Below are positions 26,830 through 47,065 of a DNA stretch of 64,000 nucleotides, one piece after another. The stretch's first letter is position 1. Every line of letters begins with the position of its first letter. Below the pieces are notes generated by a model. That model was given only the letters and a program-made list of their open reading frames with translations, ran no database searches and was not told the DNA's origin. Source of the DNA: Neofusicoccum parvum (taxonomy: Eukaryota > Ascomycota > Dothideomycetes > Botryosphaeriales > Botryosphaeriaceae); the NCBI GenBank assembly GCA_020912385.1, contig CP087221.1, forward strand, positions 310,001 to 374,000, given 5' to 3'. The position numbers were made by a program, and so were the translations under genes.

Positions 26830-28817
26830 TCACCAATCCCCTCCTAGATCCAACCCACCACCGCTCCCACCCGGTCCCTTACAGCTTCCCGCATCTTCCC
26901 TGCCCACCATCAACCCACCCAGCCCCTTCCCCTCCGCGTCGCCCAACCCCATCCCCAAAGCAACGGCAACCAGCACCGCCAAAAGCAGCACCAGCACCTG
27001 CGCCCACGACGCCCCACCCCCCTCGACGCGATCAATGCCCTCCCGCTCCCGCTTCTTCCCCGTCCCCCCGTGCCCCCACACCACCGCCTCTCCTCCACCA
27101 TCGCCCACGACCTGCTCCACCGTGACCTTGCTCCCGGCCAGGCAGATGGGCACGCCGGTGCCCGGGTGGGTGCTCGCGCCGACGAAGTACAGCCCCCGGA
27201 TGGACGGGTGGCGGGTCTTGGGGCGGAAGGACAGGACGTTGAAGAAGTCGTGGCTGAGGCCGAGGATGGCGCCCCTGTCGAGGTTGAAGGCGTCGCGCCA
27301 GGCGGCCGGGTCGTTGACGCGCTCGTGCCGGATGAGGGGCGCGAGGTCGGCGCCGGTGCGCGCGCGGATGGTGTCGAGGACGGTGGCCCGCGCGAGGGCG
27401 CGCATGCGCTGCCAGTCCTGCCCGGCTGCGGTCGAGGCCGAGGAGGTCGATGGTGTTGTGGAGACGAGGTGGCCGACCGGGACGAGCACCACGACGGCGT
27501 CGTGGCCGGGAGGGGCGGCCGAGGCGTCGATGCGAGAGGGAACGTTGACGTAGAAGGAGGGCTCGGCTGGGATCTGCTGGTGCTTGAAGATGCTGTCGAA
27601 GCTGGTGCGGTACGAGTCGGCGAGGAAGATGTTGTGGGCGCGGAGCTCGGGCACGGTGCGCGAGAGCGACCAGTAGAAGGAGATGCTGCTGCAGGAGGCG
27701 GGCTTGCGGGTGAGCGAGCGCGCGTACGGCGTCTGCGGGAGGAGGTTGTTGTAGGCGTAGACCAGGTCCGAATTGTTGACCACAACGTCGGCGTGGAGGG
27801 TTTCGCCGGAGGCCAGGACGACGCCGGTTGCTCGGCGTTGGTCGGGGGAGAGGGCGATGTGGGAGACGGGTGTTGACAGGCGGTATTCCACGCCCAGTCT
27901 TTGCCCGACCTTTACAAGCGCGTCGACTACCTTGGAGTTGTCAGCACAGTGGTTGTGAACGTACGACTAAGGGTGTAGCAGACCTTGTGAAAGCCTCCTT
28001 CCGGATACCAAATGCCTTCTGCAAGCTCCGTATACTGTAGTAGACTGTACGTGCCCGGGGCGTCAAACGGACTCATGCCCATGTACATGCTCCCAAACGT
28101 GAAGACCCGCCTCAATCTCTCGGTCCAAAAATACTTCGAGGCTCTACTGTAAATGCTCTCAAACGGATGCAGCTCAAGCAAGTGCTTCAGAAAGCTCCAC
28201 CTCGCCATGCTCAGCAGCGTTGTGAAGTTGCGCTTCAGCACATGGGTGACGCTGAGCTCGTAATGGCGGTGGGCCTCCTGAAGGAAGCGCAGGTAGCGCT
28301 CGAAGCCGTCCTTGCCCTCCCACCTCTCAATCTCCCGCTTCATGCGGGCCAGGTCGGTGGACAGCTCGAAGCTGTGGCCGTCGCCGAACCACAGGTTGTA
28401 GTTGGGCTCGCATTTCAGCAGGTGCACGCCCTCAGCCTCGAGGGAGGTGCCCAGGTCGTGGAAGGCCTCGGCGAAGAGGTTTGGCAGAAGGAGCAACGAG
28501 GGGCCTTGGTCGAATCGCTGGGGAGCACGTGGGCGTGTTAGTGCGGCGGTCTTGGTCTGAGACGGAGCATGCGATTGGGCCGTACGAAGCCGTTGTGCTC
28601 GATCAGCGAGCACCGCCCGCCGGTGAAGTCGTTCTTCTCAACAACGGTGACCTGATAGCCGGCCTTCGCGAGACGCGCAGCGGTTGCGACGCCGCCAACG
28701 CCGGCGCCTGAGTCATGTCCGCCAGTCAGTGGCCGGCAGCAAGGCATTGAGCAGCGGGGCAGCTGGGGGGCACGAACCGATGACTACTGCCGTCTTCTGG
28801 CGGGCCTTCTCGTCCAT
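26830..28817 (-). CDS. carB: Phytoene desaturase (carotenoid 1-4/5-step dehydrogenase)
   Basis: Four exons, 28817-28778, 28707-28586, 28517-27984 and 27930-26830, encode 598 aa; all phases fit. Seen: an N-terminal FAD/NAD dinucleotide fold rebuilt across intron 1 (VVIGAGVGGVATAARLAKAG), RFDQGPSLLLLP at the start of exon 3, GGFHKVVDALVKVGQ across intron 3, and the C-terminal carotenoid-dehydrogenase signature GLYFVGASTHPGTGVPICLAG. A hydrophobic segment near residues 540-560 probably anchors it to the membrane. Family knowledge: fungal CarB/AL-1 desaturates phytoene to lycopene and further to 3,4-didehydrolycopene. Intron 3 has a weak donor (GTCTGC) with a good CTGAC branch site and AAG acceptor; homology makes the junction likely. 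The gene lies tandem, 317 bp downstream of carRA. Confidence 0.93.
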
Positions 28818-29134
28818 CGCGGACAATTTGGGGGTGCTGGAGGGACGGGAATGCACAGCATCTGGGGCGTTCTGGCGTATAGTGCGTGACGTGACGTCTG
28901 GGAATGCGCGCTGGGCCGGCGGGAGCCGACCATGTCCATCGCCCAAGAGCACAGACTCCGCCGCCGACCCACAGCCCGGCGATCGCTGCAGGGGTCGTGC
29001 CACGACGCCCACCAGGCGGCACTGCAATGAACATTGTTGCACGATCAAAGCATTTGGATGATGTGGACACTCGTCCAGCGACCTGGGTATCTGCGAGCCG
29101 ATGCAAATCTACACACTACACATTACCCGCACCG
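28818..29134. promoter_or_regulatory. carB promoter / carRA 3' flank
   Basis: 317 bp between two co-oriented genes. It holds a palindromic GCGATCGC at 28979-28986 about 165 bp upstream of the carB ATG. A GATCG core also occurs upstream of carO and carRA. White-collar light-response elements are GATC-type, so this is a candidate site, not a proven one. Confidence 0.4.
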
Positions 29135-31174
29135 TCAACCCCTGCTCCTGCTGAGCGCCCGCCACGCAACAACTATCCTCCTCCGCTTGGGCACAGTTGC
29201 CCTGCCTTCGCGAACCCTGTATCCTTCCTCTCTGATGACCCGCCCGATTTCCATGTAGCTCTCAACCGCTACGCGCATTGGCCCCACGGCCTCCTCAGGA
29301 AGCTCTCCAATCGCGTCCTTTGCTTCGCTGTAGATGTAGAATGCGCGGTTGAGCAGTCTGAGCCTCAAGTCCTCCACTCGCGTACCCTGTGGGTTCTTGA
29401 TGACGGCCGCAGGCGTGAGCTCTTTCTCGCCCAGCCAGTCGACTGGGATGTACACTCGTTGAATCTGCGCATCAACTGCAATATCCCGAGAGATGTTGAC
29501 GTATTGCAGCGCTACACCCATGCGAGACCCTGCTTCAATCAGCCGCTGCCTGGTCGTGCCGGGTGCACCAGTCGGCAGGTGGTGGAAAACCATCTCCAGG
29601 ATTGAGTGAGCCACAGTCCCCGCAACGCGTTCCCCATACAAGTCCAAGTCCGACACATTCTGGATTGGGTAGCGGGAAGGATCGTTGTCGACCGAAGTAA
29701 AAGCGATATCCATCTCAAACCCGTCGAGCATATCATACAATGGTTTGCTGGAGAGATACGACGTCGGGAGGAACCTGAGCGCTGATTGCGCCTCGGGTGG
29801 GAATTTGATCTCAACATAGTCTTGCAGCAAGGTACCTTCTTCCGAACCCTTGTATGAGAGATCAAGGTACATGCGGAGTTTGCGTATCCACTCTCGAGCC
29901 TCTTTACAATCGGAAGCGTTGTCGATTAGGTCATCCGCGACACGGCAGAACGAGTACCTACAGAGAAGTTAGGGGGTGCTTCAACCGCATGGGCATACGG
30001 GCTTACAATAGAATTAGATCGATCCGCAACCTCCCTTGGAATGTACCACTGGCCAGGTAAAAGCTCCGGCTCTTTCGCCTCAGGCGATCGACCGCCTCCT
30101 GGAGTGCATGGATGTAGGATTCGTCGTAGGTAGATGCAGGCTTAAGCAGAGCGCGAACAAGCAATGCCGGGGAAGGCAATGCTGCAACAACGGGGAATGA
30201 CTGCTGACATGTGTACAGGATGGTCAATGCATTGTCAAATGCAATCAAACCGAAAACGATCAAGGTATTCGTGACGAGGAAGAAAAAAGCCTCCCTAATA
30301 TCTTGTCAGAGACGTCCTTCAGCAGCATTGGGCTCATGCGTACTCTATCTCCAAACCGGGCCACAAATGAATGCCCAGCTTGGTGCCAGCCTCGATGACC
30401 CACGTGCCGCGTCTCAAGGCCAAGGTATCAACAATCCAGAGATACAGCGTAGGTACAACAATGGGCCATGTGGAACTGGACCTGGGAATGGCGAGTATAA
30501 ACTGGTATGCGAGACTCCTGTCTCCAGTTAGTTCCGCAACAAGTAGCCAGGAGCTTGCAGCAACGCACCATAGAAGCAGTAGGAACGGAAATGCCCAGAG
30601 TATGATCAATCCGATATATGTACCGCGTCCTCCAACCTGAACCATGCGCAGACTCAACCCAATGCCCAGTGCCAACACCGCCTGGCCAGTCCACTGGTAT
30701 TTCCTCCATGATGGCTTTCTCCCTTGCAGCGCATTGCTTTTGCCACCCTCGGCGCGTAGATATACGGGGAAGAAGACGGGTTTGCTGAGTAGGAGATACA
30801 GCAGCGAGGTGTTGTAGGTCTGTATGACAAAAAAGAAAAGCTCCTCGGCGGGGATATCGAACAGCGTCGGACCCAGGATAACGTAGGCAGGATAGGTCCA
30901 AACTCGGGTGCGGATGAGGTACGAGTCCCAGGGAATGGTGGAGACAACGGCAATCTGGTTGGGTCAGAGGCGACGGGGCAATGGCTCAGGGCGCATACTG
31001 ACAGTCACCAGGAAGAGTATCTTGTACACGTCGAGCCGGGTAAGTAGCGGGCGGTAGAGCAGAGTGAGGGCTAGGGCGGGAGGAACGGTGTATTTGAGAT
31101 GTCTGTTCACATGTGAGACGAGCGTGAGCTAGAGACAGGCACCAGACTCACACAAGCGCATAGTCGTAACCCAT
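29135..31174 (-). CDS. carRA: Bifunctional lycopene cyclase / phytoene synthase
   Basis: Six exons, 31174-31152, 31102-31003, 30954-30569, 30517-30344, 30294-30007 and 29957-29135, encode 556 aa. Each junction restores a conserved block. The N-terminal part (about 1-240) is the fungal lycopene cyclase with the paired acidic signatures IPAEELFFFVIQTYNT and LEIEEAFFFLVTN and several membrane helices. The C-terminal part is a trans-isoprenyl diphosphate (squalene/phytoene) synthase with aspartate-rich motifs in CRVADDLIDNASD and QYVNISRDIAVDA. Family knowledge: CarRA/AL-2 condenses two GGPP to phytoene and cyclises lycopene to beta-carotene. The third intron (30568-30518, 51 nt) has no stop and is a multiple of three, so a naive ORF runs through it. 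The gene is divergent from carX across 692 bp. Confidence 0.93.
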
Positions 31175-31866
31175 TGCTTGCGGTTGAGGCGGGCGGCGGT
31201 GCTACCGGGCCATTACCCGGAGGGTGTGGGACTCAAGAGGACGCAGGAACGAAAGGCAAAGTTACGCTTCGTATAGGGCCGGGGCTGGAGGGCGGAGGGC
31301 GGTGCGAAAGCCAATTGCAAGCGGAGCGGCAGGGCACGGCGAGGGCTCAACGATCGCCATGGTGTTGAGGGCGCGAGGAAACGGCGGCGGCTCTCTGGGC
31401 CGGGGCGGCGTCCGGCGGAGACGGCGGCACACGTCAGGACGAGGCAAAAGCGGCGATGGATTGCTGGCAGGGGCCTCGTGCGGGCGGCAGGGAAGGAGCT
31501 TCGGCGCGACACGCACTGACATCACCACCGCGCCCGATGCATCGCCCCGCCAGTCTGCCGCTGCGCCCGCGGAATGCCAAATTGCGCCGTCCAAATCGAG
31601 ATGTTGCAACCGGCTTTCACATGGCCATGTGCCCCGGCGCCCAGCCGCGTCTTCTCCGCTCGATGCCGCCGACGCCTGCATGCCGCGCACCGCGCTTGCC
31701 GTCATGCTGCCCGCTCTGCCCGCCTGCCCGCCTGCCCGCGCTCTGCCCAGCCAGACGCAACATCACGTTGCTGTAACACCACCAGCATGTGCGCTCGTCT
31801 CGCCGTCACCCGCTGAAGTATCCCCGCGCTGCTGCTGCTGCTTTGCTCTCGCACCCAGCTGCGACC
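31175..31866. promoter_or_regulatory. Shared carRA/carX divergent promoter
   Basis: 692 bp between the carRA ATG (31174, minus) and the carX ATG (31867, plus). It contains a palindromic CGATCG at 31351-31356, 177 bp from the carRA start. The arrangement suggests joint, probably light-induced, control of beta-carotene formation and cleavage. No TATA box could be assigned. Confidence 0.55.
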
Positions 31867-34080
31867 ATGCCTCAGCTTGCTGGCCAAAAGCGCAAGAGAG
31901 CCGACCAGAAGCACCCGTAAGCTTGTGCCTGTCCTGCTCCAATGCCCAATTGCTGACGAGAACAAAGCTATCTTGCAGGCAACTATGCACCGGCCACACG
32001 GACGCGAGAGTTGACGCCATGCACCTACACGGGATCCATTCCTGAAGAGCTCGTCGGCGGCCAGTATGTTCGCAATGGAGGCAACCCCATCTCCAATGAA
32101 GACCTGGGCCGCGACGCTCACTGGTTTGACGGAGACGGCATGCTCGCCGGCGTCCTGTTCAAGCGTGGCGACGATGGCGAAATCCGTCCAGAGTTTGTGG
32201 CCCAGTTCATTCTGACAGATCTACTTCTATCGTCACTCTCGAACCGGTCCTTGAGGTTTCCAATTCTGCCAAGCATCGCAACGCTCGTCGACCCGCTCTC
32301 TTCGCTCTTGGCCATCATGCTACGGATCATGAGGACTGTGTTCCTTGTCATACTCTCGCATCTGCCGGGTTCTCGCCAGCCCATTAAGAAGATCAGCGTG
32401 GCAAACACAGGAGTCTACTATCACGACGGTCGCGCACTAGCCACGTGCGAGAGCGGGCCTCCTATCAGGGTCTCTCTGCCCACACTGGAAACCATTGGCT
32501 GGTTCAATGGCAGTACTGCAGAAGGAGAGCCCGCCAGGAGAAGTGACGAGGCCAGATTTGGAGGCACGAGATTGTTGGGTTTCATGAAAGAATGGACTAC
32601 GGGCCACCCAAAGGTCGATCCTGAGACCAACGAGATGATCCTGTACCACTGTACCTTTGCTCCTCCATATATCCACTACTCGATACTTCCGGCCACGAAC
32701 AATGCCGCACGCAACACAGCGCCTCTCCCGAAATTAATTAACCAGCCGGTCTCTGGAGTTTCTGGCGGCAATATGATGCATGATTTCGGCGTATCGCGGA
32801 AGCATACCATTATCATGGATCTCCCTCTCACCTTGGATCCTCTTAACCTCGTCAAGAACAAGCCAATTGTATCATACGACCCTTCTGCACCATCCCGGTT
32901 TGGCGTGTTCCCGCGCAGGAACCCTTCTCGCGTTCATTGGTTCGAAACATCAGCATGCTGTATCTTCCACACAGCCAACGCCTGGGACGATGAAGACAAG
33001 TCGGGTCATGTTACTTCTGTCAACCTCCTAGCCTGCAGGCTCACTTCTGCGACGCTGGTCTATAGTGCTGGTAATGTTGCGGTGCCTAAACTGCCCAAGA
33101 GGTCCCCGGATGACGACAGACCTATCTCCTTTTTCGATAAATACGACTTCGACGACACGGATACTGCTGCCGGTGAGATTTCCTTCCCCGAATCTGGAGG
33201 GTTCGACGCTGCGCCAGATCTTGAGTCACCTCGCCGGGATACAGCACCCCTCCAACCGCTCACGCATATTGATCCCGAACCTGACACGGAATCCATCCCC
33301 GAGCAAAACGCTTGCTCCTCACTGGACGAAGAAGAGCAATGCCGCCTCTACTACTACTCGTTCACTCTCCCGTCCGCTACTTCTGCCCTGCAGATCGCAA
33401 CCCAACACGCTCTATCTGCCATTCCTTTCGAGTTCCCCACCGTCAACCCTGCCTTCTCCATGCGCTTTGCGCGCTATATCTATGGCTGCAGCACCAGCAG
33501 CTCCTCCTTCGGAGCCGCCCTCGGCAAAGCCGCCAAGGTCGACGTCCTAGCCAAACTCGACACCCAGACTCTCATTGTCCGCGGCCAAGTGTACCCACCT
33601 CACCCAGTCACCGGCTGCGTCGATACTCGCTCGGTGTCGGAAGTTCTGGCGCAGCAGGCTAAACTGGACGATCAGGACGATCCGGTGCGCTGCTTCAGGA
33701 TGCCGGACGGTTGGTATGCGCAGGAAGCGCGGTTCGTTTCGCGAAGGGGTGCTGCAAAAGAAGATGATGGGTATTTGCTATTCTACGCGTTTGATGAGAG
33801 TCAGCTGGACAAGGACGGCGAGGCACGACCGGAGGCTGTGAGTGAGCTATGGATCTTGGATGCAAAGACCATGCGGGATGTGTTTGCAAGGGTGCGGCTG
33901 CCGCAGCGTGTACCGTATGGGTTGCACGGTGAGTGGTTTGAGGAGAGGCAGATCAGAGAGCAGCGGCCGTTCGAGAAGATGAGGACGGTGGAAGATGTGC
34001 TGAGGAAAGAAGGAGAAGAGAAGGGCTTGTGGCGGGCGTGGATGGGGACGAGGAGAACACTTGAGCGGTGGTTGGCGTGA
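31867..34080 (+). CDS. carX: Carotenoid cleavage oxygenase, CarX type (retinal-forming)
   Basis: Exon 1 is 31867-31916 and exon 2 is 31968-34080; protein 720 aa. The 51 nt intron has a GTAAGC donor, a TGCTGAC branch site and an AAAG acceptor. This choice restores the family start KHPYLAGNYAPA, whereas the nearby TTGCAG would shift the frame. Seen: four predicted iron-ligand histidines, His230 (TTGHPKVD), His278 (NMMHDFG), His341 (CCIFHTANAW) and His670 (PYGLHGEWF), plus GGQYVRNGGNP and DAHWFDGDGM. Family knowledge: Fusarium CarX splits beta-carotene symmetrically into two retinal molecules. Length and the internal insertion (RFPILPSIATLVDPL region) favour CarX over the torulene-cleaving CarT/CAO-2. 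Position beside carRA supports this. A variable acidic segment (about residues 370-450) interrupts the propeller. Confidence 0.92.
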
Positions 34081-37981: not shown

Positions 37982-40900
37982 ATGGCCTCTCCCAGTACAC
38001 CTGTGGAAACCCCGAAGAGGCATAGCAAGGGTCCAGTGAGTTGTGGTTCTCCAGGAGGCATGAATGGAATTGGAGATGTCGTGGCCTCGAAGAAGGGGCA
38101 TACTAAGACGATTTCCAACTACAACATTCCGGAGCAGGACACTAAGCCTTCACGTTCACACTCTCGGACAGCCAGCGGTACCCATTACGACGCAGCGGAA
38201 GATCAACAAGCAGAATTCCTGGAAGTCAGCTCGGAATCCTACTATGGACCTGTCACCACAATCAATTCAACAGTTGGCAAGTTTTTCGAAGTTGTAGGTA
38301 CTCCTGCGAGGCTCTGTCAGCATACAGTCTCGTTTTTCTCTACGGAACCGAAGAGGAAGGAGGTCAGCCTCAAGTCTTTGAGGCGTGTACTTCTGAGGGA
38401 ACTCGTGAATGAAAAGCTGAGCAAGCCTGGTATTCCTCCTCCTGTGCATCATGGAGCCGAGAAAATCTACTCCATGAAACCTCTACACGACGAGCTAAAG
38501 GCAACTCCATCAGAGAAGCTCTACGACATTGATTATCCAGACCCCAAACAGCCTGGTACACACACTCGCTACGAGGCCAAGATTCGCCGCCTTCCAGACG
38601 TCAAATTCGAGAATGTGCGAGGATGCACGAAAGGCTCTAAATGTGGAGGTTGCGACGATTGCCCGGTTAAAGAATGCCTGAATGCTCTGAATGCCTTGCT
38701 ACAATCGGTTCTGAAGACAAAAGCGGGACAGGAAGGCTGGGTACCCGTCAACGACACATTGTACATGCCCAAAGAACCCGAGGAACTCCAAGAACCCAAG
38801 GTGCCTAAGGCGCCCACGGAATCTGAGAAAGTGATGGTAGATGACCTGATGGGTCTGCGTCGGGCCATTAATTTCTCCATCAACCTCTTGGGAGAGAATT
38901 GTCGTTCCGCGGGTCGATCTGAGAAGACACCTCACAAGCTGGTACTGTCCGTTGGTGTTCACCCGATGCCGCTCATCAAGGCAGGGAATCTGGGAACAAT
39001 CTACAGGAGGTACTTAGAAGAAATCCCGGCTAACGCCAGAGAGACCAAGCAGCGGAGGCAGAATGCTCTTGATGCTTTTTTTAAGAGACTGAAAGTCCAT
39101 CTCACTTATTCATCATCTGGAAAGTCGAAGGAGGGAAACTCACCTGGAAAACTGGTAAAAGTCAGTGATCCGGACGACATTGTCAGCGGCCGAGCACATC
39201 GTATTGCCTCTTTTGGCTTGAGTGCCGACAAGCAAATGTTCTACTACCGACCAAAAGGAACAGAAATTTCGGTAGAGCAGTATTACAAGACTGGTAAGTA
39301 ACTGATTAATCAAATGGAGAAAGCCAGACTTAACCAATTTGTTTCCATAGAACGCGAATACACTCTCAATACTCCGAGTCAACCGGTAGCAAATGTTGGA
39401 AGCATCACGAGACCGACATGGGTACCTCTCGAACTCCTTTGGGTACAGGAACAACCGTGCTTCAAATACCCTCCAATTCGTGACCTCAACATATTCAAGT
39501 CAGTGTTGGGAGAACGCGAAAAGATGATCCGAGGTTTCGATATCAACCTTATGAGATCGGAAGACGAGGTCGTCAGGCTTCTGGGTAGGAACGAGCTGAA
39601 GGTATGTAAAATGTGTTACAGAAGAAGCAATGGAGAAAGAACATTGCTGAAAAATCAGGAATCCTTCTTTATTCGTTTCAAGCCTGAGGCAGAGACTTTT
39701 CGGGGACGACTCCTGGCAAACGGGTCGGATGAAGAACTCACGCAGAGACTGGGCGACGCCCGCCCAGACAAAATAATTACGCCAAACTTCAAGAACTCAC
39801 CGAAGAAGATTATCTTCTTGGCGATTAAATGTGGGTCAGAGAAAGACTCTCATGAAAAGGAGCTGTTCAAGGACAACTGCACCTTGTTTTTCAAATACCT
39901 TCAGGACAATGGTAACCTGAGCTCGAACCCAGACGTACAATTCGAGTACCACTCAGCCAATGAGGTTCAGGTGAGTGTGAAGGACCGGAAAGAGTTGTTG
40001 AAGAATCCCATATGCAGCGACAGCCTTGTTTTTATCGGACTGGAAGGCACAGCCCAAGAGCGAAAAGAAATTCATGCAGAGATCAGGCTTTGGAGCGATA
40101 CAGTCAGTGGCCAGCCAACGGTCTTTTTCGATACCTTGAATTTCAACAAGGTCATGCTAAATTGGCACGAGCCTATCCACAAGAAAGAAAAGAGAACGGC
40201 GATTGGCCTCGCCAGAGCTCTTTTGACGAAGGCTATCCACAGGTTCGAAGGCCATACTAAGCCTAGTACTACTCTCAAAGATCTTGCAAAGCCAGGGTAT
40301 ATTCTGGAGAAGACGATGGTGATTGGAGCTTCGCTGGTCCCTGGCGAGATAGATTCGTTCAAAAATCTTCCGTCAATCTCTACAATTGCTACCAGCACCG
40401 ATAAGACATTCACGCAGTACCGAGGGTTCATGCGGCCTCAAGAAGCAGGAGGAAAGGTAAGTTGTATTCAGTTCCTGGTATTGCGCCGTTTGACTGATTG
40501 CGCAAGACCATCGTACACCTTGGCGATATGGTGAAAGAAGCGTTGAAGGCATACTTCGAAGAGAACGAGAACTTGCCGGAATCTATTCTGTACTTCCGTA
40601 ACTGTGTCGGAGAAGACGATTTTGATATCATCAAAAGTGCGGAGACACTTCGGATTGCGGACGCCTTCAACGAAGTTCTGGATGAAAAATTCCCAGAGCC
40701 TAAGCCTAGCCAGAGGACGGACGGGAAGAACTTGAGGACGGTGTTCCCGAATGATGTGCCTAGGATCTGCATCGTAGCCTTGTCTAAAGGCACCAGCACA
40801 AGGTTCTTCTCCGATGGAAGCAGTGTTGGAGGAGATTTCGCCAAGAACCTGAAGGGAGGTGTCGTTGTCGACGCCAAAGAATTCCAGAAAACCAGCGCCA

Positions 40901-41310
40901 AAGCCAGAGAGTTCGATTTCCATCTCCAGTCGTACACCAATCTCTGCAAGTCCATGGATCAGCTCGGGTTTGCCTCAAATACTCACTATTTCGTGCTGAA
41001 GAACGAGCCGCACTGGAAGCGCGAGGATATTGAGCAGGTGGTAAGTAATTATTCTGTCATGTCGATTTTTATCGACGCTAAGAAGTTGTAGACGAACAGG
41101 CTTTGCCTTGTCAATGCCGTCGAAGCGGCTACATCTTACGTCACGCCAGTCTGCTACTCAAGAAAGATCTGCGAAAGAGGTCGTGATTACCTTCGGAGTG
41201 TTGTCGGTGATAATCCAAACAAATACGTTGGTTTGACACCCGAACAAGCAATTGAGGAAGTCAAGAAAGTCACGCTTGTGTTGCCTGACAAGCCGATGTT
41301 CTGGCTGTAG
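37982..41310 (+). CDS. Highly divergent, catalytically inactive-looking Argonaute-like protein
   Basis: Four exons, 37982-39293, 39351-40456, 40507-41040 and 41092-41310, encode 1056 aa; phases are consistent and introns are 50-57 nt. Architecture by eye: a Ser/Thr/Lys-rich head, a Cys cluster (C215, C221, C224, C227, C232), N/L1 region (NALDAFFKRLKVHLTY near residue 365), PAZ (about 400-475: HRIASFG, ISVEQYYK, VPLELLWVQEQ), MID (about 580-745) and PIWI (about 755-1050: EKTMVIGASLVPG, PSISTIATSTD, LPESILYFRNCVGEDDF). At the DEDH slicer positions it has Ser765 for Asp, Lys806/Thr807 for Glu, Asn838 for Asp and Arg1008 for His. MID keeps basic residues but apparently not the Tyr and Gln of the 5'-phosphate pocket. 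Inference: a non-slicing Argonaute relative. It is unlike QDE-2 or SMS-2 in length and detail. Confidence 0.82.
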
Positions 41311-42231: not shown

Positions 42232-43911
42232 ATGTCGGGTGAGGTCCTCAAGGCCGACAAGGACTTCACCAAGGAAGCCGACAAGGCGATCCCAGAGGCG
42301 GAGGCCCTTGCCAAGGTACTTTCGCTTGCTGCTACCCCGCGATGCAACTGCTGACGCCTTCTCCAGAGTAATCTCCAAGCCGCCATCGAAAAGCTCCTTG
42401 CGCTCGAGAAGCAGACCCGCCAAGTACGTCTCGCGGAGATGGCGCCTCACATCTAAGTCCGCTGACAGCTCCTAGGCATCCGACCTCGCCTCAACGTCCC
42501 GCCTCATCGTCACCATCGTCACATTATGCAAAGATAAGGCAGAATGGGGTCTGTTGAACGAGCAGGTGCTCCTGCTCTCCAAGAAGCACGGCCAGCTTAA
42601 GCAGGCTATCACCAGGATGGTTCAGGTCGTTATGGGCTTCTTGGATGGCACTCCGAACTTGGATACCAAGTTGTCCATCATCGAAACCCTGAGGACTGTC
42701 ACTGAGGGCAAGGTGCGTATCCCTGCTCTTCCCTGGAGTCCAAGCGCTGATAGCAGGCATAGATCTTCGTCGAAGTCGAGCGCGCGCGCGTTACACGTAT
42801 CCTGTCGAACATCAAGAAGCAACAAGGAGATGTCAAGTCAGCCTGTGACATTCTGTGCGAGCTCCAAGTCGAGACTTTCGGATCTATGACCCGCCGAGAG
42901 AAGACGGAGTTCATTCTGGAGCAGGTGGCGCTGTGCATAGAGAAGGGTGACTGGACCTCGGCCGGTATTCTGAGCCGGAAGATCAGCACAAGATACTTTG
43001 CGAGGAAGCCCAAGAAGACCCCGGAGCAGCTGGAGAAGGAGAGGAAGGAGCGCGAGGAGGCCGAGAAGAACCGGAGTGCGGATGATCCTCCGATCGAGCC
43101 GGAGGATGATGTCACCGACCTTAAGCTGCGTTACTACGAGCAGCAGATTCTCCTTGCGAAGCACGACGACAAGTATTTGGATGTCTGCAAGCACTACCGG
43201 CAAGTTCTGGACACCGAGGCTGTTGAGGAGGATTCGGAGAAGCTCAAGGCGGTATGTAGACTCCATTTCCTCCCGATATCCTTGTGCTAATCGTCCCAGG
43301 TCCTACAACGCGTCATCTACTTCGTCATTCTCGCACCTCACGACAACGAGCAGTCCGACCTTCTCCACCGCATCCACCGTGATACCCGCAATGCGCAAAT
43401 ACCCGTGGAAGCACAGCTCCTCAAGCTCTTCACCATCCCGGAACTCATGAGGTGGCCCGTCATCTCCAAGCAATTCGGCCAGCAGTTGTGCGCGACCGAC
43501 ATCTTCGACGCCGAGCCTGGCCAGTCGAGCGATGCCAAGGCACACCAGCGCTGGCAGGATCTGCGCAAGCGTGTCATCGAGCACAACGTGAGGGTCGTTG
43601 CGAAATACTACACGCGCATCCAGATTCCGCGCCTCACGCAGCTCCTTGATCTCTCGGAGGATGAGACGGAGAAGTACATCGCCGAGCTTGTCACGGCGAA
43701 GACCATTTACGCCAAGATCGACCGTCCCGCGAAGATTGTCAATTTTGCCAAGCCTCGTGATGCCGATGACGTCCTGAATGAGTGGAGCGGCAACATGAAG
43801 AGTCTCTTGGGACTGCTGGAGCGTATTGACCACTTGATCACCAAGGAAGAGATGATGGCTAGGATCCAGCCGACGAAGGTGGAGAAGGGGAAATCGGGCA
43901 AGGTTCATTGA
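42232..43911 (+). CDS. RPN5: 26S proteasome regulatory subunit RPN5 (PSMD12)
   Basis: Five exons, 42232-42315, 42367-42423, 42476-42712, 42763-43251 and 43300-43911, all phase 0, encode 492 aa. Seen: N-terminal TPR-like helices, a Lys/Glu-rich linker (TPEQLEKERKEREEAEKN), and a C-terminal PCI domain (about 300-450) ending with HLITKEEMMARIQPTK. The block RWQDLRKRVIEHNVRVVAKYY is characteristic of RPN5. Family knowledge: a stoichiometric scaffold of the proteasome lid that contacts RPN11 and the alpha ring; essential in yeast. Four short introns cluster in the first two thirds, typical of conserved genes in this group. Confidence 0.95.
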
Positions 43912-45358: not shown

Positions 45359-47065
45359 ATGTTGACTGAGCACTTTCTTGCCTCGATTGGCACCACTACT
45401 AGGAAACCGGACACCTCCTCCGCCACCAAGGACGCCGGGATCTTCCTCCACGAACACCAGCCACTCCTCGCGCAACGCCATGCTTTCAAGAAGAGCGCTT
45501 CCGCCCCGAAGTGTGTCGCAGTCAGCCGGTCGCATGTATTTGCTGCCCAGATAGACAAGGCGGTTGTGCATGTGTACAGCAGAGAAAGAGGGAATCAGGA
45601 AGCCACAGTGCCCTTCCCGGAGAGAATCACAAGCCTTGCGCTTGCGCTTGATGAGACGGTGCTGGTGCTGGGAACTGAGGGTGGAAGAATAATACTTTGG
45701 GAGGTATGTAGTGATTTGGAGGCTCTATCCTGGAGGTGAGGGCTGACCTGCTGCTAGGTATGCACCGGTCGCTCGTTAACAGGCCCACAATCCCACCTCC
45801 AATCCGTCACCGTCCTCGCCGTCGACCCGAATTCGCAGTTTCTCCTCAGTGGTTCCGCAGACTCCAACATCCACATATGGTCATTACCGTCACTCTTATC
45901 CTTCACCGCACCGGCAAATCCAACCCCGCTACACACTCTCTCCAACCACCGAGGAGGCATCACTGCCTTGGCTGTTGGCCACAGCAGCTCTGCCGCAAAT
46001 GTGGTGGTTTCGGCGTCCAAAGATAATACTGCCATCGTCTGGGACTACCGGCAAAACAATCTTCTTGCAACCTACCTTCTCGGAGACACACCTCTTTCTC
46101 TTGTTCTCGACCCTGCGGACCGCGGGTTCTACACGACATACGAGGATGGCAGTGTTCAGTACATCGACTTCTACACCTCCGGCGACTCGGAAGAACAAGC
46201 TCCCTTAGACTCCCTCCGTGACCCAGACACTTCCTACACCCCGATCACACCCGCCTCCGCGACCCGTTGGCGCCCCTTAAATCAGGAACTCGGTGCAGGT
46301 CTCAGCATAACGCTTAGCTGGGACGGCACAACGATACTGACAGGTCACTCCACCGGGAAGATCGCAGCGTGGTCTCCGGTCTCGTCCACTCACCTCAAGA
46401 CCGTCCTCAACACCCTCCCGGGCCCTATCACCAACCTCTCATTCCTCCCACCAACCGGCTTTCCGACCTCCACTAACGAGTCCAAGTACAAGATACATGC
46501 AATCGTCAAGCCGCGCCTCGATCTGAAGGCGCACGTCAGCGACGGTGAAGTTTCGAGCCCTGTGCCAGCCGCCTACTCATTCAACGCCCAGCTCGTCGGG
46601 TCCATAGCCAGACCGTCCGTCTCTGCATTTGAACCACGAAGGAAAAGCAGAAAGAGCGCGTTCGAGGAGGCGCTGACGCACACCAGCTTCCCTTCTGATA
46701 TGCTGGAGCGGAGTCTTGCAGAGCTGAAAGCCTCTACTGGATCTGGACAAATCCCTGCTACTCCCACAGCCACGGTTGCAATTGAAGCAGATGGTGACTA
46801 CATGGCTTTGGATATGGAGGAAGATGCGGATGCGGATACGAAGGCGAGCTTGGAGCGGGAAAACAAGGAGTTGCGGGAGCAAGTGGAGGCGCTGCAGCGT
46901 GTGCAGAAGGCTACATTCAAGCAGCTGGCAGAGCTGAAGGAGGAGAAGAAGAAATCGAAGGGCGCGGCGGGAGCGGGTGGAATGGAGGACAAGGAAGATG
47001 AGAAGAGTGAGAAAGAGCGGAGAAGTGCGAGGCTACGGAAGGTTATGAAGGGATTGGGCGAATAA
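45359..47065 (+). CDS. IPI3: Pre-rRNA processing WD40 protein IPI3 (WDR18)
   Basis: Two exons, 45359-45703 and 45758-47065, joined across a 54 nt intron (GTATGT donor, CTGCTAG acceptor), give 550 aa. Seen: WD-type blades including VTVLAVDPNSQFLLSGSADSNIHIW, NVVVSASKDNTAIVWDY and ITLSWDGTTILTGHSTGKIAAW, then a C-terminal coiled coil (about residues 480-545, ENKELREQVEALQRVQ) ending in a basic tail. Family knowledge: Ipi3 forms the Rix1 complex with Ipi1 and Rix1, acts in the nucleolus on ITS2 removal and 60S subunit maturation, and has been linked to DNA replication licensing. Domain order and length fit fungal Ipi3. Confidence 0.9.

Follow-up and report, generated by a model that had tools for sequence, protein, structure and literature searches.

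Argonaute slicing is metal-dependent and proceeds through a tetrad of acidic residues. Here, we describe a gene, AGO_E, whose sequence marks it as a derived Argonaute and in which none of the four tetrad positions is acidic. The gene lies at 37982-41310 on the + strand of a 64,000-nucleotide stretch of DNA from Neofusicoccum parvum, a plant-associated fungus of the family Botryosphaeriaceae in the Dothideomycetes, order Botryosphaeriales (contig CP087221.1, positions 310,001 to 374,000; hereafter, the window), within a genome of 44.0 Mb and 18 contigs that contains four more Argonaute loci: AGO_A (C5), AGO_B (C4), AGO_C (C2) and AGO_D (C3). The gene models of AGO_E and of all the paralogues were built from sequence alone, and those of the paralogues are uncertain at the extreme N terminus. 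In the alignment, the tetrad columns of AGO_E read S746, K787, N819 and R989 instead of the required D-E-D-D or D-E-D-H. Because all four positions are without an acidic residue, two are basic and the mechanism depends on metal, slicing would be excluded, and we regard its loss as near certain.

The tetrad is D-E-D-D in AGO_A, AGO_C and AGO_D, and D-E-D-H in AGO_B. The first-pass annotation of this DNA had proposed that all four slicer positions were lost, which the alignment confirms. It named the residues correctly, but numbered them Ser765, Lys806/Thr807, Asn838 and Arg1008 in place of S746, K787, T788, N819 and R989, and left open a choice between Lys and Thr for the glutamate finger, which is E637 in human AGO2. 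That position is Lys787, on the basis of a gapless match to AGO2 and of an intron shared with AGO_D; Thr (T788) is ruled out by the same evidence. A search with exon 4 (229 candidates) found two public N. parvum protein records, P0005 and P0006, that match at 99%. K787 and N819 recur in P0005, and N819 and R989 in P0006, making sequencing error an untenable cause of the tetrad loss at these positions; S746 lies outside the coverage of both records and is supported by the present assembly alone. Nor does alternative splicing restore the tetrad, as three of the four codons are exon-internal and the sole GT[AG][AT]G donor at the K787 junction encodes Lys. Residues neighboring the tetrad are also altered in AGO_E, at the positions of human AGO2 V598, H600, P601, G670, S672 and Q675. 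The annotation had taken DEDH to be the usual fungal state, whereas the fourth position is mostly D (QDE-2, KpAGO and three of the paralogues here; PMC4290597). According to the same source, the leading two DDH residues are well conserved across fungal Argonautes and most of these proteins carry DD[DEK], with other patterns far commoner in animals, above all Caenorhabditis elegans.

Membership of the family is supported by domain content. The Pfam profiles for PIWI (PF02171, E 2.3e-24, 86.6 bits against a cut-off of 28.9) and PAZ (PF02170, 29.6 bits against 28.8, a narrow pass) both exceed their thresholds, and the predicted structure indicates that a MID domain fold is present, although caspase-6 and other unrelated folds rank close behind in the Foldseek list for this model. 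Pfam profiles listed neither ArgoN nor ArgoL1 at E<=1. Matches in the PDB are strongest to KpAGO and AGO2 (2.8e-9 to 6.2e-8), followed by Piwi-A (1e-4) and Siwi (5.8e-3); by these matches AGO_E is not nearer to the PIWI clade than to the AGO clade, the tree described below being built without PIWI proteins. The coordinates, reading frame and order of domains originally assigned to 37982-41310 are borne out.

In order to assess erosion outside the tetrad, we used six sequences to define invariant MID-PIWI columns: human AGO2, QDE-2 of Neurospora crassa and AGO_A to AGO_D. The AGO2 letters were taken from chain 8d6j, an engineered PIWI-loop variant, and guide contacts were those of Elkayam et al. 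as quoted in PMC4504477, plus E637. AGO_E retains 24 of the 47 invariant columns and departs alone at the other 23, compared with lone departures, by the same count, of 3 for AGO2, 2 for QDE-2, 1 for AGO_A, 8 for AGO_B, 0 for AGO_C and 3 for AGO_D. In human AGO2 numbering, K566, K709, R714, S798, R812 and R814 are unchanged, K533R and K570R are like-for-like changes, and Y529H, R710G, H753Y, R792A and Y804C are unlike; H712S, Q757L and R761S are found at columns that vary among the comparison sequences. As a result, the 5'-phosphate pocket (AGO2 Y529, K533, K566, K570 and R812) reads H, R, K, R, R, with its positive charges retained and its stacking Tyr replaced. The PIWI seed contacts R710, R792, S798 and Y804 correspond to G882, A974, S980 and C986, so that one of four is kept; QDE-2 (2yha, 2yhb, 2xdy) has all four together with a D-E-D-D tetrad, and of these residues AGO_E retains S798 only. 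Contact and catalytic columns are kept less often than the remainder (3/12 versus 21/35, P 0.038). If K709, R714, H753 and R814, which we take to be nucleic-acid contacts as well, are moved to the contact list, the difference weakens (6/16 versus 18/31, P 0.15). The losses in AGO_E thus tend to fall on positions that handle nucleic acid, a tendency that is not firm.

The AGO_E model consists of five exons and 1037 codons. Exon 1 (37982-39293) encodes the N-terminal half and most of PAZ, and is followed by intron 1 (39294-39350; 57 bp, GTAAGT...TAG, phase 1), which matches the AGO_C and AGO_D models in site and phase. Exon 2 (39351-39601) carries the end of PAZ and the start of linker 2. The next 57 bp (39602-39658) are in frame and had been read as coding, giving four exons and 1056 codons; however, their ends (GTATGT...CAG, phase 0), their low G+C content (33%) and the coincidence of site and phase with introns in AGO_C and AGO_D indicate a likely intron 2. 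Exon 3 (39659-40456) contains linker 2, the MID domain with pocket residues H660, R664, K712 and R716, and the first PIWI strands, including S746 (codon 40331-40333), and ends on K787 (40454-40456), a placement supported by the alignment, by the intron position and by P0005. Intron 3 (40457-40506; 50 bp, GTAAGT...AAG, phase 0) directly follows this codon. Exon 4 (40507-41040), in which P0005 and P0006 agree, encodes the PIWI core and Pfam Piwi match, with N819 at 40600-40602 (both records). Intron 4 (41041-41091; 51 bp, GTAAGT...TAG, phase 0) is removed in P0006 and read through in P0005. Exon 5 (41092-41310) encodes the PIWI C terminus, with R989 (codon 41161-41163; P0006), the retained R994 (equivalent to R812) and the stop codon. 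Seven of the eight splice sites have the usual form, the AAG acceptor of intron 3 being the sole exception.

AGO_E likely shares its origin with AGO_D (C3:1212648-1215801, a model from sequence). The two have four intron sites and phases in common, the fourth, that of intron 4, on condition that the AGO_D acceptor lies six bases upstream of the one predicted. Two of these introns are also present in AGO_C and two, including intron 3, in AGO_D and AGO_E only among the paralogue models. Random placement would produce two such coincidences with a probability of about 5e-6, and the shared introns therefore point to common descent of the gene structure. The exon-4 PIWI piece of AGO_E is also nearest to AGO_D (33% versus 27, 27 and 30%), although it is the only piece that is. 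Ancestral introns lost from AGO_A, AGO_B and AGO_C would give the same pattern. Other observations weigh against a special link to AGO_D: whole-protein identity is higher to AGO_C (22.6%) and AGO_A (22.0%) than to AGO_D (20.8%; AGO_B 16.8%), and a genome search with AGO_E finds AGO_C best, then AGO_A. In a maximum-likelihood tree of eight rows, AGO_E is unplaced; its branch measures 6.94 changes per column, those of the others span 0.67-2.33, and a clade of AGO_D and AGO_E is compatible with the data (approximately unbiased test, p-AU 0.345, not rejected). With its long branch and lost tetrad, AGO_E fits its initial description as a fast-evolving, non-cleaving paralogue. In contrast, AGO_D has an intact D-E-D-D tetrad, keeps R710, H712, H753, R792 and Y804, has a detectable ArgoL1 and is without the Cys-rich insert described below. 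The AGO_D PIWI domain also carries about 60 extra residues of charged, low-complexity sequence just before the glutamate finger (L030:4774-4956).

What AGO_E might do has to be judged from these features, and we give an even chance to its being an Argonaute-derived, non-cleaving modulator, either a competitor or a regulator of RNA silencing. In the protein, the Argonaute scaffold and the positive charge of the 5'-phosphate pocket persist, whereas several of the residues that grip the guide seed are gone. Kept basic residues together with lost seed contacts suggest that AGO_E could bind small RNAs by their 5' ends, or capture the partner proteins of Argonautes, while leaving RNA uncut, and could hold an RNA 5' end without presenting the guide properly; it would thereby compete with, or regulate, the four slicer-intact Argonautes. 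Guide binding, competition, expression and every other step beyond loss of slicing are what we infer for AGO_E. The earlier suggestion of a guide-binding or decoy factor is possible but no more than half supported, by the charges of the pocket, with the lost seed contacts counting against it. An unlikely but more pointed version is that of an "anti-Argonaute", in which an active site converted from acidic to basic (formal charge -4 to +2), a largely lost seed grip and a kept 5'-phosphate pocket would dedicate AGO_E to competing with, or regulating, the fungus's own slicers, evolving fast as in conflict with viruses or transposons.

Among alternatives to a modulator, the one that fares best, and to which we assign a modest chance, is a guide-loaded Argonaute that, by analogy with the C. 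elegans WAGOs, would load small RNAs, perhaps products of RNA-dependent RNA polymerases (RdRPs) with unusual 5' ends, and silence through recruited partners. The basic 5'-phosphate pocket and the presence of RdRP genes in the genome are consistent with such a role, but R710, R792, Y804 and H753, which hold the seed, are all replaced. WAGOs and long-B prokaryotic Argonautes are reported or classed as being, like AGO_E, without a working tetrad (PMC10101689, PMC12477606), but are described in the literature as separate lineages. The first three tetrad positions, classed as universal, are diverged in long-B Argonautes, according to PMC12477606.

It is improbable, though conceivable, that AGO_E has become a guide-free scaffold with a new protein-protein or metal-binding role, one that a Cys-rich insert might serve. 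Within exon 1, at 38624-38677, is an insert, C215-x5-C-x2-C-x2-C-x4-C232, with five Cys in 18 residues that is not seen in the four same-genome paralogues AGO_A to AGO_D. In a post hoc shuffle test, 5 Cys in 18 residues arose in 21 of 20000 shuffles and 4 Cys within 17 residues arose 146 times out of 5000, and the insert is possibly a metal site. The lean of losses to nucleic-acid positions, weaker with the wider contact list, would also fit a scaffold, whereas the K533, K566, K570 and R812 positions that are all still K or R and the narrow PAZ match speak against one.

Least probable of all is a decaying gene under constraint relaxed by recent loss of function. The long branch is consistent with decay, as are the off-consensus acceptor, the G+C content at third codon positions (0.56, the lowest of the five and below the 0.69-0.78 of AGO_A to AGO_C, though slicer-intact AGO_D is at 0.59) and the public N. 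parvum models, which are fragments annotated as truncated hypothetical proteins of 203 or 243 aa; the last two count against a functional AGO_E. The low G+C is not attributable to repeat-induced point mutation (RIP), as the two indices of the AGO_E coding sequence, 0.65 and 1.17, differ little from the values in AGO_A to AGO_D (0.37-0.63 and 1.14-1.34), with the former index the highest of the five by a small margin. Nevertheless, the 1037 codons run through without a frameshift or a stop, the absence of stops having a chance by composition of 6e-24, and a branch of such length without any stop speaks against AGO_E being an old pseudogene. Many of the retained invariant columns are structural, and over residues 779-1037 only two differences, M937 and V985, separate AGO_E from the N. 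parvum records. The original view of an intact frame that is unlikely to be a pseudogene thus holds for old decay, which is disfavored by the open frame, by splice sites that mostly fit the consensus and by the nearly identical N. parvum pieces, and leaves room for a recent one.

Both records bear the title 'hypothetical protein GTA08_BOTSDO02155 [Neofusicoccum parvum]', a tag that we take to be that of Botryosphaeria dothidea, which suggests a homologue of AGO_E in that species. Of 7976 candidates scored in a protein search with AGO_E residues 450-1037, none matched at E<=0.001; a search with the four-paralogue alignment found only four Schistosoma proteins among 7994, so absence from that set says little about fungi. 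For B. dothidea, PMC7325678 lists four Argonautes alongside two Dicers and three RdRPs, with expression of BdDicer, BdAgo and BdRdRp raised to some extent by mycoviruses, and BdAgo4 in a separate group of its own. One of the four, GME8235_g, resembles AGO_E in that PAZ and Piwi alone are recognized. From list order, BdAgo4 is probably GME8235_g, and at a guess from domain content alone it may be the AGO_E orthologue. Four Argonautes are also reported in Lasiodiplodia theobromae (PMC12415416) and in Zymoseptoria tritici, three of the latter with highly distinct alleles (PMC8303167). No report of a fungal Argonaute without all four tetrad residues was found among the best-ranked titles and abstract openings of the open-licence literature, nor is one described in the passages cited here, and the motif table or figure of PMC4290597 may hold cases. 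Catalytically dead Argonautes are in themselves nothing new, because relatively few AGOs possess the tetrad (PMC10101689). "Undescribed system", for which AGO_E was first put forward as a candidate, is too strong for a derived Argonaute when non-slicing ones are common outside fungi (PMC10101689) and an orthologue possibly exists in B. dothidea (PMC7325678).

Elsewhere in the window, 26833-34077 contains a probable carotenoid gene cluster, with matches to squalene/phytoene synthase (1.9e-49), an RPE65-family carotenoid oxygenase (2.5e-112), a flavin amine oxidoreductase that is likely phytoene desaturase (4.9e-5) and, below threshold, lycopene cyclase (0.009). The right flank resembles ordinary core genome, with a PSMD12/CSN4-type N terminus (4.6e-27; 42476-42889) and a WD40 protein (45758-47062). 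Genome-wide, there are 45 integrase-core (rve) matches at E<=0.001, several of which have long open frames and score identically (for example C16:480346 and C16:680443); these are probably young long terminal repeat retrotransposons in a genome that retains RNA interference genes.

AGO_E is flagged here as a gene that is fragmented in two public N. parvum models. As a tetrad-less paralogue poor in seed contacts that sits beside four slicer-intact Argonautes, it would make the idea that dead Argonautes act as decoys or regulators directly testable by removal of the gene.
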